Shown: piece by piece, positions 1,115 through 6,830 of the stretch | Layout: every line of letters begins with the position of its first letter | How positions within the stretch are numbered: position 1 is the stretch's first letter | NCBI GenBank assembly: GCA_030620115.1 | Contig: JAUXFG010000186.1 | Span: 1 to 6,830 of the forward strand | Reading direction: 5' to 3' | DNA length: 6,830 nucleotides | Origin: Candidatus Fermentibacterota bacterium | GTDB taxonomy: Bacteria; JAFGKV01 | Translations under genes and position numbers: made by a program | The notes under the pieces: generated by a model | Told to the model about the DNA's origin: nothing | Database searches by the model: none | The model's input: only the letters and a program-made list of their open reading frames with translations

Positions 1115-1137
1115 ACCGAACCCTAGCTCGGGTCGGT
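1115..1137 (-). terminator. weak hairpin over the helicase stop codon
   Basis: ACCGA-A-CCC and GGG-TCGGT can pair as an 8-base-pair stem with one bulged A and a 6-base loop holding the TAG stop of the helicase remnant. No T-run follows on the minus strand, so an intrinsic terminator is doubtful. A decayed terminator or a chance structure are both possible. Confidence 0.2.
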
Positions 1138-1851
1138 GTGGTGGAAACACTTGTGGAGGACGACGGTCTTGAAGTCGACCAAGACGTCGAAGCAGATACG
1201 TAACGCATCGACGTAGGGGCTCCTCGATGCGGCCTCACCATTGATGGTTTCGATGACAAGCCGACGTTTCGGTTGGAACCGGCGCGACAATAGATGACGC
1301 AGGAAACCAAGATACTCAGCCATGCGCGGATCATCGGGGGGTACTCGGAAAATCAACGCTTTGGCGAGTCGTTCTGAAATCACCACAAGATCAGTGCCCC
1401 GATACACGAGATGCGTTCCCACGAGCCGTTTCGGCAGTTCCTCTCGCAACGAATGGAGCCCCAAGCCACAGAGACTTGCAGGATCGGTGGCATTGAGCCA
1501 ATAGATGACTTGCTCCGGCAAGGCTCGCTGCAGCTCCCGGAACGCGCGATGCGAGATAAACTGGGGCCCCGGGATCCCCTCGAAGAAACAGCCCGCAAGT
1601 ATCTCCCCCGACAGCTCCATCAGCCGCAAAGATCGGAAAACACCGGCCCAACGGAAAACAGGCAATTCCCTGGCGACCAGCTCCCGGAACAGGATGCCAT
1701 AACGATCCAGCAAGAGCCTGACACGATCCTTGCTCCGTTCCTGGGCTTCCAGGGCATCATCCGGAAACGCGGGTCTTGGTAGCCGAAACCATGTCCCCGT
1801 GTACGGAAGTGCGCCTCTCCACTTGGAGAAGCCCGCCCGGCCGCTAAACCG
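1123..1851 (-). pseudogene. lhr: C-terminal remnant of an Lhr-type helicase
   Basis: A frame open on the minus strand from about 1884 to the TAG at 1123, with lhr-like sequence from about 1810. It has no credible start: the first possible start is a TTG at 1713 inside conserved sequence. Recognised family stretches include GTWFRLPRPAF, then DRVRLLLDRYGILFREL, RLMELSGEILAG and FFEGIPGPQFISHRA, all typical of the extended C-terminal region of large Lhr proteins (about 1,400-1,500 residues in E. coli-type Lhr). The first residues, GRAG at 1831-1842, may be the tail of helicase motif VI. The frame differs from that of the N-terminal part, and the conserved region that should lie between them (end of RecA2, winged helix and following domains) is absent. 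I read it as the 3' end of the same broken gene. An assembly error joining distant parts is the main alternative. Confidence 0.75.
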
Positions 1852-2935
1852 CGGACGAGAGGGAGGGCGGAGACTGGACGAGCATCACCTCATCAAGCGC
1901 CCCGATATCGATGCCCAACTCCAGGGAACTCGTGGCAACAATAGCCTTCAGATCTCCAGCCTTCAGCCTGCGTTCGACTTCCCCCCTGATCTCTCGCGAA
2001 AGCGAACCATGATGCGCATAGGCAAGAGGACCATGGGAGCCATGGTTTATCTTCAGGGTCACTCTCTCGGCCAGTCGCCGGCTGTTGGCGAACAACAAGG
2101 TGGAGCGATTCCGTCTGATGATTTCCCTGAAGCCATCCACCAGAGGCTCCCACAATGATTCCGTGGCCGGACGATCGATTGCTTCCTTGGGGAAACACAC
2201 ACCAATAGCGTACTGTTTTATGCTGGTCGACCGAACACATGACACAGGCCTGGGTGTAAAGAGAGGGCTTTCCGAAGAGCCGCCTTTTTCGAAGCCGCCG
2301 ACGAACTGAGCAATAACCTCCACGGGACGAATCGTGGCTGACAAGGCGATCCGTTGGAATTCACCAGACAGCATGACCAAACGATCCACTGCAGTCATCA
2401 GATAGACACCACGCTTGTTGCCCGCCACGGCATGGATCTCATCGAGGATCACGGTAGAAAGCCCTGTGAGCATCGATCGCCCCCCGGTTGAGAAAAGAAG
2501 AAGATTCAGGCTCTCAGGTGTGGTGATGAGAATCTCAGGAGGATGACGCAACATGCGGCGGCGGTCCGCCTGCGGGGTGTCGCCGCTACGTGTCCTGACA
2601 TGGATGGTGGGAAATGGCTGCCCAGCCGCCTCGAAGGTCTCCTCCAACTCCTTGAGCGGTCGAAGGAGATTCCTCTGTACATCGTTGTTCAGGGCCTTCA
2701 AGGGGGAGACGTAGAGCACTCTTGTTGCTCCCCTGGCCCATCTGCCGGTAATCAGGGCATTCAGTGCCCACATGAAGGCAGCCATGGTCTTGCCACTGCC
2801 GGTAGGCGCGGCGATCAACACGTGTTCGCCGGCGGCGATCCGCGGCCACGCCTGCTCCTGCACTGGCGTAGGCTGCCCAATACTTTCGCAAAACCAGCGT
2901 TCGATCAGTGGGTGAAAAAGGGATCCAGTCTCCAT
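1844..2935 (-). pseudogene. lhr: N-terminal part of a broken Lhr-type SF2 helicase
   Basis: The first 363 codons of a large ATP-dependent DNA/RNA helicase of the Lhr family (superfamily 2, nucleic-acid repair or processing). Residues counted from the ATG at 2935 show the usual motifs in order: Q-motif region QPTPVQEQAW (21-30), Walker A APTGSGKT (43-50), VSPLKALNND (76-85), TTPESLN (138-144), the DEIH box (165-168), SAT (199-201), FANSRR in RecA2, and motif V ATSSLELGIDIG (334-345). The frame stops at TAG (1844-1846) just after LVQSPPSLSSA, exactly where intact members continue with Gln-Arg-x-Gly-Arg of motif VI. Without motif VI the ATPase is expected to be inactive. The start at 2935 fits family N-termini (FHPLIERWF). 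A Met 15 codons upstream is rejected because those codons are repeat sequence. No good ribosome site is visible. The 3' part of the gene lies at 1123-1851 in another frame. Confidence 0.85.
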
Positions 2936-2987
2936 TGTGCCATCTGAACGTTGAACGCTGAACACTGTCTTCTTCCTCACCCCACCC

Positions 2988-3088
2988 AGATTCTTCGGTC
3001 GCTCTGCTCCCTCAGAATGACACGCGACGATGGGTCCTTGTACGTAATACCACTGTCATTCTGAACAACTATAGGGAGCGAAGAATCT
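2988..3088. repeat. palindromic module, first copy
   Basis: Left arm 2988-3022 and right arm 3054-3088, 35 bases each, enclose a 31-base loop. The outer 10 bases (AGATTCTTCG) and the inner 11 (TCAGAATGACA) of the left arm pair exactly with the right arm; the 14 bases between them do not. The result would be a long stem with an internal bulge. The right arm has lost some agreement with the second copy (ACAACTATAG where the second copy has GCGACTCCAA). It resembles a small non-autonomous palindromic element of the REP or MITE kind; no transposase is present. Confidence 0.75.
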
Positions 3089-3182
3089 CGCTTCACTCCA
3101 GAATCCATTCTCCCATTCCCGTCTCTTCCTCCTCGGTCTGTCATCTGAACGCTGCACGCTTCCTTCCCCCTCCCCTCCACCC

Positions 3183-3283
3183 AGATTCTTCGGTCGCTCT
3201 GCTCCCTCAGAATGACACGCGACGATGCGTCCTTGTGCGTTATACCACTGTCATTCTGAGCGACTCCAAGGAGCGAAGAATCT
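3183..3283. repeat. palindromic module, second copy
   Basis: Arms 3183-3217 and 3249-3283, with the same 31-base loop length and arm spacing as the first copy, displaced by exactly 195 bases. The left arms are identical and the loops differ at only a few positions. The right arm holds CTGAGCG and GGAGCGAAGAATCT, close to the form of the inverted copy at 733-800, so this copy may be nearest the ancestral sequence. Confidence 0.78.
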
Positions 3284-3367
3284 CTCCTTGCTCCTCGTTC
3301 CGTCATCTGAACGCTGAACGCTGAACACACTCTCCTCCCTTCCCCTCCAGATCACTGATTCCAGATT

Positions 3368-4600
3368 CTAGAACTCCCTCAGCTCTCCTTCATCATCGAA
3401 GATAGTCTGGAAATTGCCGATTACCTCGAGCTTCTCTTGGCATTCCCGAAGCACCGCTCCGGACACGTACATCTCTTCAAGATGGAGGGTATCCCGAATA
3501 CGGATGATTCTCTCCTCCCGTGGTTGCAGGGAACCAGCCGCCCTGGAGGCGATCTCCAACGCATGCCTAGCATTATCCGCAATCATCGGGATCTTCGCGC
3601 GCTCCAAGAATGTGCTGGTCACCACGTTCTCATACATTGCGGCGAGATCGATCTTCTCGAAGAACCTCCTCGTGATCACGTCGGCAAAACCGACACCGAC
3701 CGCATTGCCATGCGACGCAGGCGTCAGATCAGTGACGACGATTTCCTTTATTCTCGGTTTTTCCGGTTCTTCCTGTCCTCTTATCTTTATTCTTCCGGTG
3801 ATGTTTGGATCAATTCCGGTGCCACTTATATCTTTCCCTTGTCTGTCGATAATGAGGATATCGATCTCCTCAATTGGAAGGCAAGGCATACTGCGCCTTG
3901 CATATTCAAGAAGGCCTGGCTCCTCCCGCATTATATCGTCTGGCCCAAGTGCCCGGACGAGGGCGGTTTCATCGCGTGCATTCTCAACAATGGCCAGGCC
4001 CATAACTATCTTACCAGTGGAGAATATCTGCTGTGCGGTGGCGGGGGTGAGCTCTTTCAGGCCCTCCACACCACACCGGTGTATCTCCAGGGCCTGTTTG
4101 TGTTTCCCGAGACCAATGACGCACATCTTGACAAGCCCACTCTCGTATTGGCCATGGAAATCGGTATGGGGTTTGATGCGATTGATCAGGATTACTCCAT
4201 CAGCTTCATACGCATGCCTATCCATGAACACCCGCTGCTTCAAACCACCGAGAGAGAATTCGACCACGTCCATGGAAGACAAGACCGGAATTCCCATACG
4301 TTCCTCGGAAATGCCAAGGCTCGCCAATACCTCACGCTGTCCCTCGGCGGTCGCGCCGCCGTGGCTGCCCATGGCTGGTACGATGAAAGGGCTTCCTCCC
4401 CCTCGACGGACAAATTCGATGACGCGTTTGATTGCCAAGCCCAGATCAGTGATTCCACGACTTCCCACAGCAATTGCGATCCTGGCCCCGTGTTCGATCT
4501 TGATTCCAGACTGTTGGAGCTCCTCGTCCACCGCAGTGCCCACATCAGGCAGTCTCTCGGTCTCGAACTCCTGCCGGACCTTGATCAGCTTCCGCGTCAC
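3368..4600 (-). CDS. LarA/DUF2088-family protein, nickel-dependent 2-hydroxyacid racemase-like
   Basis: A 410-residue protein of the LarA (lactate racemase, DUF2088) family, close to the usual length of about 420. Characterised LarA interconverts L- and D-lactate in the cytoplasm using a nickel-pincer nucleotide bound to Lys, with His residues as ligands and acid-base catalysts. Counterparts visible here, numbered from the GTG start, are His80 in AMGSHGG, His145 in RIKPHTDF, Lys158 in GLVK and His167 in GKHKQA. The central part (GKDISGTGIDPNITGR) and the stretch VTDLTPASHGNAVGVGFADV are strongly family-like. The GTG at 4600 is chosen because it lies 5 bases after the dehydrogenase stop; an upstream ATG (4702) would run 97 bases into that gene. 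The last gene of the operon. Substrate unknown: lactate, glycerate or another 2-hydroxyacid. No lar cofactor-synthesis genes (larB, larC, larE) lie in the window. Family firm, reaction inferred. Confidence 0.8.
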   Translation of the reverse strand: MTRKLIKVRQEFETERLPDVGTAVDEELQQSGIKIEHGARIAIAVGSRGITDLGLAIKRVIEFVRRGGGSPFIVPAMGSHGGATAEGQREVLASLGISEERMGIPVLSSMDVVEFSLGGLKQRVFMDRHAYEADGVILINRIKPHTDFHGQYESGLVKMCVIGLGKHKQALEIHRCGVEGLKELTPATAQQIFSTGKIVMGLAIVENARDETALVRALGPDDIMREEPGLLEYARRSMPCLPIEEIDILIIDRQGKDISGTGIDPNITGRIKIRGQEEPEKPRIKEIVVTDLTPASHGNAVGVGFADVITRRFFEKIDLAAMYENVVTSTFLERAKIPMIADNARHALEIASRAAGSLQPREERIIRIRDTLHLEEMYVSGAVLRECQEKLEVIGNFQTIFDDEGELREF

Positions 4601-4605
4601 AATGC

Positions 4606-5559
4606 TCAGTTCACCACATTGACGGGGTTGCCGTCCAGAAAAGCTCTGATATTGTCTGCGGTCATCTGTATCAGTCGTACCCGTGATTCGAGGCTGGCCC
4701 ACGCGATGTGTGGAGTGATATGGCAGTTCCTTGCCCCAACAAGCGGGTTTTCCGGAGGCGGCGGTTCCACGTTCATCACGTCGAGACCCGCGCCGGCAAT
4801 GACTCCTGTGTTCAATGCGAGGGCAAGATCTTCCTCATTCACCAGCGGCCCCCTGGCCGTGTTGATCAACAAGGCCGATGGCTTCATCTTCGACAGGTTT
4901 TCGGTCCGGATTATCCCTTTGGTGTCGGGAGTCAAAGGACAGTGCAGGCTGATGATCTCGCTCTCAGAGAAGATCGTATCAAGATCCACGAACTCTATCA
5001 CAAGATCGTCCAAGGATACGGGGTAGAGATCATACGCGATAACCTTCATGCCGAACCCCAGCGCAATCCGCGCCGTCTCCCGCCCGATTTTGCCACATCC
5101 AAGGAGCCCAAGCGTCTTTCCTTCCAGCTCCATCTGTGGATAGTCCCAGTAGCAGAAGTCTTTGCTGGATGCCCACTTCCCCTCCTTGACAGTCCGATCA
5201 TGATGGCCCACGTGGCGTGCAAACTCCAGGATATGCGCAAAGACCATCTGAGCCACTGAAGAGGCGCAGTAGTCGGGAATGTTGGTGACAACAACATTTC
5301 TTTCCTTGGCTGCGGCCAGGTCGATCACGTTGTAGCCGGTGGCAATCACGCCGATATACCGCAACTCTGGGAGCCGGAGAATCAGGTCGCGATCAAATAC
5401 CACTTTGCTGGTGATCACGATCTCAGCATCCTTGCTTCTCTCATACGTCTCCTCCGGAGCGGTCCGATCATAGACCGTACACGTACCGAGAAACTCTATG
5501 GGCTCCCAGTTGAGATCCCCGGGATTGATGGTATAGCCATCGAGAATTGTTATCTTCAT
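4606..5559 (-). CDS. D-2-hydroxyacid dehydrogenase, NAD-dependent (glycerate dehydrogenase-like)
   Basis: A complete 317-residue member of the D-2-hydroxyacid dehydrogenase family, which interconverts D-2-hydroxyacids and 2-oxoacids with NAD(H) or NADP(H) in the cytoplasm. The substrate-binding part carries ATGYNVID (73-80) and NIPDYCASSVAQ (93-104). The Rossmann domain has GCGKIG (154-159), followed by Asp177 at the end of the second strand, which usually favours NAD. The catalytic triad is present: Arg236 in NTARG, Glu265 in NVEPP and His284 in TPHIAW. The overall pattern is closest to glycerate dehydrogenase/hydroxypyruvate reductase types, but lactate-like or other substrates cannot be excluded. 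The ATG at 5559 overlaps the AOR stop as ATGA, with GAGAGG 9 bases upstream on the minus strand, so translation is probably coupled. The LarA-like gene follows 5 bases after the stop. Confidence 0.9.
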   Translation of the reverse strand: MKITILDGYTINPGDLNWEPIEFLGTCTVYDRTAPEETYERSKDAEIVITSKVVFDRDLILRLPELRYIGVIATGYNVIDLAAAKERNVVVTNIPDYCASSVAQMVFAHILEFARHVGHHDRTVKEGKWASSKDFCYWDYPQMELEGKTLGLLGCGKIGRETARIALGFGMKVIAYDLYPVSLDDLVIEFVDLDTIFSESEIISLHCPLTPDTKGIIRTENLSKMKPSALLINTARGPLVNEEDLALALNTGVIAGAGLDVMNVEPPPPENPLVGARNCHITPHIAWASLESRVRLIQMTADNIRAFLDGNPVNVVN

Positions 5560-6830
5560 GTCTTGCCGCCTCTCCTGGCTCTGATCTCATTGTATTCCCT
5601 GATCATGGTGTCCAATTCATCCCTGGTGAGGGTCGCCCCCTCCTCCGTGGGCTGCGTCAGGAATGGTTTCGGCAACGTATCGGTAGAGGCATCGAGCCCC
5701 TCTCTCGTATTGAACTCCCTGGTGAGGTTCGTAATATCGTTCGCCATGTCCTCAAGCTTGTCCTTGGAAAGCTCCATCCCTGTGGTAGCGCTGATGAGCC
5801 TCAGAAGCTCATCCCATCCGAGGAAATCCCGGAAAAACCGGCACAGCACCAGGCTGTCGAAGATCACTGCCCTATCTTCGTAGTCAATGTGAAGCTTCGC
5901 CTTTCCTGAGATCTGGTTCTTGTCCATCTCGCCGGAGAGCTCCGCCTTGTAAAACGTTCCCCTGAGATGGCAGGCGCCCCGCGCGGAAGTTGCATAGGAG
6001 AGCCCCATTCCCTTGAGCACCCGTGGGTCGAATCCACCTGGTTCGAGCCCCTTCACGTGGATGGCCTCGTCCTCCAGTCCAAGCTCCTCGGCAGCCGGCT
6101 TGATCCCTCGCGCGAAGATCTCACCTACGCCTCTCCGATGAGAAATCATCTCGTAGAGCTCCCCGACCTTCTCAGGCTGGTTGTAGTCGATCTCGTATTC
6201 CAGCTTGCCGGCCTTTGAGGCCTCGACGGCAAAGGAGGAGATGTTCCCCGCGCTCATGGTGTCGATCCCCAATCGGTCGCAGAGCACGTTGAGCCACGCG
6301 ATTTCTTCCATGCTGTCGATGGCGTTGAGACCGCCGATGGCATAGAGGGTTTCGAACTCCGGCCCCTCGAGCTGAAGCCCTGCATGCCTGCCGTGCTTGA
6401 TGGTGGATTTCTTCTGGCAACGGAGAAAACAGATCGGGCATCCGGTACCCTTTACTTCGAAGTTCTCCTGCATGTAGTCTGCGGAGATCTTCTCCCACTC
6501 AGAGAATACGCCGCTCTTCCAGTATCGTGTGGGGAAACACTTGAAGGCGTTGGTTACTCCCACTTGGTTGGGAGTACCACGCTCTTGATAGACCTTCGTG
6601 ACCGGGGACTCTTTGCCTTTCTTTCCAATCTCCTTCACCAGCTCCTTGAGCTCCTCGTCGTCTGCGATGTCGCACTTCTTCGTGCCTGCGAACGCAATAC
6701 CTTTGAGGTTCTTCGACCCGAGCACCGCACCCATGCCGCCCCGGCCCAGGCTTCGCCATATGTCGGATTTGATGCAGGCGATAGCCACCAAATTCTCCCC
6801 TGCCGGTCCAATCACCATGGCGCCGGCTCC
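5556..6830 (-). CDS. aldehyde:ferredoxin oxidoreductase family, tungsten-type, 5' end off window
   Basis: The last 424 residues of an AOR-family protein (normally about 600); roughly 180 N-terminal residues lie beyond the right edge. These cytoplasmic enzymes oxidise aldehydes to carboxylic acids, or run in reverse, at a tungsten-bis-pterin centre and pass electrons to ferredoxin through one [4Fe-4S] cluster. Numbered from the first visible codon, the cluster ligands are Cys131, Cys134 and Cys138 (C-x2-C-x3-C in GCPICFLRC) and Cys330 in DSLVLCRF. The pterin-contact regions RGGMGAVLGSKNLK and GMGLSYATSARGACHLRG are intact. The C-terminus ends in RGGKT, and the TGA overlaps the dehydrogenase ATG. 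First visible gene of the operon. Substrate unknown; the neighbours suggest an aldehyde that yields a 2-hydroxyacid. No ferredoxin, pterin-synthesis or tungstate-transport gene is visible. Confidence 0.9.
   Translation of the reverse strand, partial: GAGAMVIGPAGENLVAIACIKSDIWRSLGRGGMGAVLGSKNLKGIAFAGTKKCDIADDEELKELVKEIGKKGKESPVTKVYQERGTPNQVGVTNAFKCFPTRYWKSGVFSEWEKISADYMQENFEVKGTGCPICFLRCQKKSTIKHGRHAGLQLEGPEFETLYAIGGLNAIDSMEEIAWLNVLCDRLGIDTMSAGNISSFAVEASKAGKLEYEIDYNQPEKVGELYEMISHRRGVGEIFARGIKPAAEELGLEDEAIHVKGLEPGGFDPRVLKGMGLSYATSARGACHLRGTFYKAELSGEMDKNQISGKAKLHIDYEDRAVIFDSLVLCRFFRDFLGWDELLRLISATTGMELSKDKLEDMANDITNLTREFNTREGLDASTDTLPKPFLTQPTEEGATLTRDELDTMIREYNEIRARRGGKT

Follow-up and report, generated by a model that had tools for sequence, protein, structure and literature searches.

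The stretch of DNA analysed here (the window) is the entire 6830-base contig C278 of a 4.1 Mb draft genome that is 98% complete. Its minus strand carries three co-oriented genes: an aldehyde:ferredoxin oxidoreductase (AOR; 5556-6830), a D-2-hydroxyacid dehydrogenase (DHDH; 4606-5559) and a LarA homologue of nickel-pincer-nucleotide (NPN) isomerase group 22 (LarA22; 3368-4600). The AOR gene is truncated at the contig end, such that the window holds its C-terminal 424 residues, spanning the end of the AFOR_N domain and the AFOR_C domain, without a start. The DHDH gene begins with ATG and encodes 317 residues, and the LarA22 gene begins with GTG and encodes 410. The coordinates bear out the close packing reported in the preliminary description: AOR ends and DHDH begins within the same four bases, ATGA, and the GTG of LarA22 follows the DHDH stop after a gap of 5 bases. 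A chance overlap of open reading frames as the source of the three genes is ruled out by their family scores. AOR matches the Pfam AFOR_C model with 335 bits; DHDH matches 2-Hacid_dh (87.9 bits) and 2-Hacid_dh_C (203 bits), both above the cut-off; and LarA22 matches the NCBIfam model NF052515 (NPN isomerase group 22) with 509.6 bits against a cut-off of 400. Of the families named earlier, AOR and DHDH thus stand, whereas 'LarA' is right at the level of the superfamily only. Like other members of its family, DHDH has full-length NAD-binding and catalytic domains, its best PDB relative being 5tx7 (E 2e-101).

A search of the genome with the first 161 residues of a homologue located the missing N-terminus of AOR at one end of contig C219. 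C278 and C219 overlap by 17 identical end bases; reading through the join yields an AOR of 579 residues, whose alignment with full-length homologues (44-51% identity) continues over the junction. The join probably completes the gene, and a reading of AOR as a gene fragment was rejected on this ground. Independent support for it comes from a cassette of the same order in a metagenome-assembled genome (MAG) of the Bdellovibrionales (see below). Across the join, the run extends in one direction as P411-SDR-Fe-ADH-AOR-DHDH-LarA22. On C219, all in the same direction as AOR, it comprises an Fe-alcohol dehydrogenase (Fe-ADH; 711 to about 1868), whose start was set at the GTG that aligns with the Fe-ADH start of the Bdellovibrionales cassette, an SDR gene (2079-2870) and P411 (2943-4178), a 411-residue protein without a known family, for which no Pfam or NCBIfam family was matched. 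The family-model matches of Fe-ADH include lactaldehyde reductase; both lactaldehyde reductases and 1,3-propanediol dehydrogenases are among its PDB relatives; and a search of 386 genomes found no close relative outside its own genome. The intergenic gaps in the upstream run measure 72, about 210 and 228 bases, and tight packing is confined to AOR-DHDH-LarA22 (-4, +5); hence, the upstream genes may form separate transcription units. A DDE transposase gene lies upstream of P411 (C219 4787-5704, minus strand).

A search with a single protein gave two relatives in named genomes, one of them the Bdellovibrionales MAG RIFOXYD12_FULL_39_22. There, PorA-like and PorB/PorC-like genes, a gene for a 418-residue protein (P418), Fe-ADH, DHDH and LarA22 follow one another in one direction. 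The proteins shared with the window genome are 68% (Fe-ADH), 55% (DHDH) and 54% (LarA22) identical; the homology between P411 and P418 is distant (23%, pairwise E 4e-11); and the two LarA22 proteins are sisters in the tree (support 0.88) within a clade of five (0.996). The P418-Fe-ADH-DHDH-LarA22 order and direction are thus those of the run in the window genome; however, the Bdellovibrionales cassette contains genes for a 2-oxoacid:ferredoxin oxidoreductase and lacks AOR and SDR. Judged by gene content and order, Fe-ADH-DHDH-LarA22 is a core common to two very distant lineages. The Bdellovibrionales genome has no LarB above the cut-off (24.9 bits) despite its LarA22. A single-sequence AlphaFold model of P418 was too poor for use (pLDDT 35). 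A Polaromonas plasmid carries a P418 homologue (54%), after which comes a stretch resembling an SDR; an Fe-ADH and a DapA-family gene are close by.

Of 386 sampled genomes, 36 carry a group-22 member scoring above the cut-off, as do 52 of the 64 genomes of a second phylum, and group 22 is also present on haloarchaeal plasmids. We examined 43 group-22 loci of foreign genomes, in most of which the neighbourhood extended about 8 kb to either side, and 15 loci from the second phylum, two of which lacked the isomerase among their predicted open reading frames. At none of the other group-22 loci examined (about 60) was there a match to the window AOR, and among these loci a DHDH orthologue adjoins LarA22 only in the Bdellovibrionales MAG. 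Elsewhere, DHDH orthologues (47-58% identity) adjoin neither LarA22 nor AOR, and AOR relatives of 44-51% identity sit among unrelated genes. The preliminary description had looked to a conserved order of the three genes; this holds for DHDH-LarA22, which recurs with Fe-ADH in the second, very distant lineage, but not for AOR, and the order AOR-DHDH-LarA22 is unique as far as searched. Such a distribution would suit a newcomer AOR acting on an unrelated aldehyde, by detoxification or oxidation, the pathway proper comprising only Fe-ADH, DHDH and LarA22 with P411 and SDR. We consider this unlikely: its absence from the Bdellovibrionales cassette and every other group-22 locus examined, and the unrelated settings of its relatives, speak for a recent arrival, but AOR is placed between Fe-ADH and DHDH, and this position together with the 4-base overlap with DHDH suggests translational coupling.

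The AOR retains a C-x2-C-x3-C motif, a fourth cysteine, and a glutamate and a histidine that align with those of the Pyrococcus furiosus enzyme; we take the four cysteines to be the Fe-S residues and the glutamate and histidine to be catalytic. Its identity to most of the AORs encountered is about 30-40%, and to three of them 44-51%; in its single large subunit, its AFOR_N and AFOR_C domains and its Fe-S and catalytic residues it resembles the class I tungsten oxidoreductases (PMC13328260). A 50% identical homologue adjoins moaA and a tungstate/molybdate-type ABC transporter (WtpC/TupB-like genes). The same genome encodes a second, split AOR on contig C198 (4731-10073, minus strand), in the order AFOR_N fused to a NuoE-like 2Fe-2S domain, a NuoF-like protein, and Fer2/Fer4 fused to AFOR_C; for the AFOR_N/NuoE-like fusion, coverage by any plasmid record stayed below 80%.

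With regard to the nickel-pincer side, larB (282 bits against a cut-off of 175), larC (108 against 90) and larE (307 against 150) lie on contigs other than the window's, and the complete cofactor set to which the preliminary description had pointed is therefore present in the genome. In LarA22, R48, H80, H145, K158 and H174 are invariant among 24 aligned members. Their spacings (32/65/13/16) are close to those of LarA1 (33/66/10/16), whose NPN-binding and catalytic residues are R75, H108, H174, K184 and H200 (PMC11770544); the equivalence rests on spacing, and the alignment of a group-22 member to 2yjg supports the two catalytic histidines only. The Pfam Lar_N model is matched by all 24 aligned members at E-values up to 1 (best 1.7e-11), the window protein scoring 17.5 bits against a cut-off of 23.3 and other members reaching 45.6. 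For one member, a lactate racemase came up as a weak PDB match (E 0.013). PDB matches of group 22, from both profile and single-sequence searches, were mainly to TAL-effector repeats and were taken as spurious, and an AlphaFold model of LarA22 from a 3-sequence alignment was too poor for use (pLDDT 43.5). LarA22 resembles the LarA superfamily (PMC7583248, PMC11770544) in a candidate Lar_N region, in how its putative NPN-binding and catalytic residues are spaced and in the presence of larB/C/E in the genome; it differs in that group 22, although named (NF052515), has no activity in the literature searched. LarA22 is therefore a predicted isomerase.

The genes beside group 22 elsewhere place LarA22 as a candidate C2 isomerase of hydroxy or sugar acids. 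Within the window's own LarA22 clade two loci have a DUF1537-type four-carbon acid kinase and a PdxA-like gene (the kinase tested with Pfam SBD_N/NBD_C in one locus, the PdxA-like gene assigned by eye). On plasmid records, group 22 adjoins, in different cases, a four-carbon acid kinase, PdxA and lactate-oxidation genes, with the order kinase-PdxA-LarA22 in Rubrobacter; altronate and IlvD/Edd dehydratases with larB/larC; UxaA; UxaC with larE/larB/larC; altronate dehydratase with larC; and, at two loci, enolases with SDR genes, one of these also with FAH. In the second phylum, four loci pair LarA22 with an Fe-ADH (one tested) of another type, 34-36% identical to that of the window genome. In three genomes of another phylum (L058, L172 and L173), LarA22 follows a SucD-like gene; L172 and L173 have a SucC-like gene further upstream, and L172 also an oxidoreductase gamma-like gene (all families by eye). 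These neighbours are mostly sugar-acid genes and would indicate C4-C6 sugar acids no less than the lactaldehyde or glyceraldehyde named in the preliminary description. LarA22 might then be a C2-epimerase (e.g., of erythronate/threonate), with DHDH and SDR oxidising the acids and AOR or Fe-ADH taking a short aldehyde from their cleavage. The SDR of the run, which is nearest (40%) to SDRs adjoining haloarchaeal LarA22, is in keeping with this, as are the kinase and PdxA-like genes in the nearest clade. Nevertheless, none of the sugar-acid genes seen elsewhere occurs in the run of the window genome, and P411 matches no known family. We regard this explanation as somewhat unlikely.

Overall, we favour, with a probability of about 0.42, the reading of an anaerobic catabolic operon that would break down a small 2-hydroxy (or polyhydroxy) aldehyde or acid, most likely a C3-C4 compound, by an oxidative route. 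Fe-ADH would interconvert a diol or polyol and a 2-hydroxyaldehyde; AOR would oxidise the latter to a 2-hydroxyacid, reducing ferredoxin; LarA22 would invert C2 by the nickel-pincer hydride mechanism; and DHDH would convert the D form to a 2-oxoacid, yielding NADH. The Bdellovibrionales cassette would have its low-potential step elsewhere, in the conversion of the 2-oxoacid to acyl-CoA by the 2-oxoacid:ferredoxin oxidoreductase. This reading draws on the tight AOR-DHDH-LarA22 packing, the upstream genes in the same direction, the same-order core in the Bdellovibrionales with its P418 and PorA/PorB-like genes, the sister placement of the two LarA22 proteins, the presence of larB/larC/larE, the residues kept in AOR, the moaA and transporter genes next to its 50% identical homologue, and the occurrence of group 22 beside larB/C/E and hydroxyacid or sugar-acid genes. 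Against it count the confinement of AOR beside LarA22 to this one of about 60 loci, the isolated DHDH orthologues elsewhere, the upstream gaps and the lack of any family match for P411. We infer the substrate (C3-C4 most likely), the direction, the tungsten and a single pathway joining all the enzymes.

As to the direction, the same enzymes could run reductively as an electron sink: DHDH would reduce a 2-oxoacid, LarA22 set the stereochemistry, and AOR and Fe-ADH carry the acid via the aldehyde to a diol. AOR and alcohol dehydrogenase are a known acid-to-alcohol couple (PMC10816221), AOR-initiated ethanol formation is known (PMC12727526), and the lactaldehyde reductases and 1,3-propanediol dehydrogenases among the Fe-ADH matches would fit. 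We nevertheless hold it to be quite unlikely: in the Bdellovibrionales, the core lacks AOR and is accompanied by a 2-oxoacid:ferredoxin oxidoreductase, an arrangement more in keeping with oxidation, even if this oxidoreductase can work in both directions. The probabilities of the four readings are not meant to sum to one, and the readings overlap in part.

Beyond the oxidative operon, it is conceivable, if doubtful, that P411/P418-(SDR)-Fe-ADH-DHDH-LarA22 is a new catabolic module with an interchangeable low-potential ferredoxin step, filled by AOR in one lineage and by 2-oxoacid:ferredoxin oxidoreductase in the other. If true, it would be the first pathway in which a tungsten enzyme and a nickel-pincer isomerase work together, and would provide the first function for group 22. 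The preliminary description called such a pairing unusual and knew of no described example with these three parts, and our literature search, outside which lay many subscription papers and supplements, likewise found no paper combining 'nickel-pincer nucleotide', 'LarA' and 'tungsten', which is weak evidence of novelty. PMC13411273 contains both 'tungsten' and 'lactate racemase' but does not link them, and the words racemase and hydroxyacid are both absent from the main text of the 2026 tungsten oxidoreductase classification (PMC13328260). According to that classification, most tungsten oxidoreductase clades lack a defined physiological role. Term searches likewise returned no activity for NPN isomerase group 22, which is thus a widespread nickel-pincer subfamily without an assigned reaction in the literature searched. 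By setting dehydrogenases beside the isomerase, the shared core offers a concrete, assayable guess for the roles of both group 22 and the tungsten oxidoreductase.

The remainder of the window contains remnants of an Lhr-type helicase (1123-2980, minus strand), with DEAD and Helicase_C domains in a 378-residue frame and WH4_Lhr in a 196-residue frame in another phase, the middle being apparently missing. Inverted 51-base arms, 96% complementary, flank this remnant. Dispersed repeats occur at 2982-3294, and also at 733-783 and 3272-3322, and include two 118-base copies that are 90% alike; stretches on contig C46 resemble the window repeats in translation. An outer-membrane beta-barrel-like protein is encoded at 16-573 on the minus strand, scoring 26.3 bits, just below the Pfam cut-off of 28.7.
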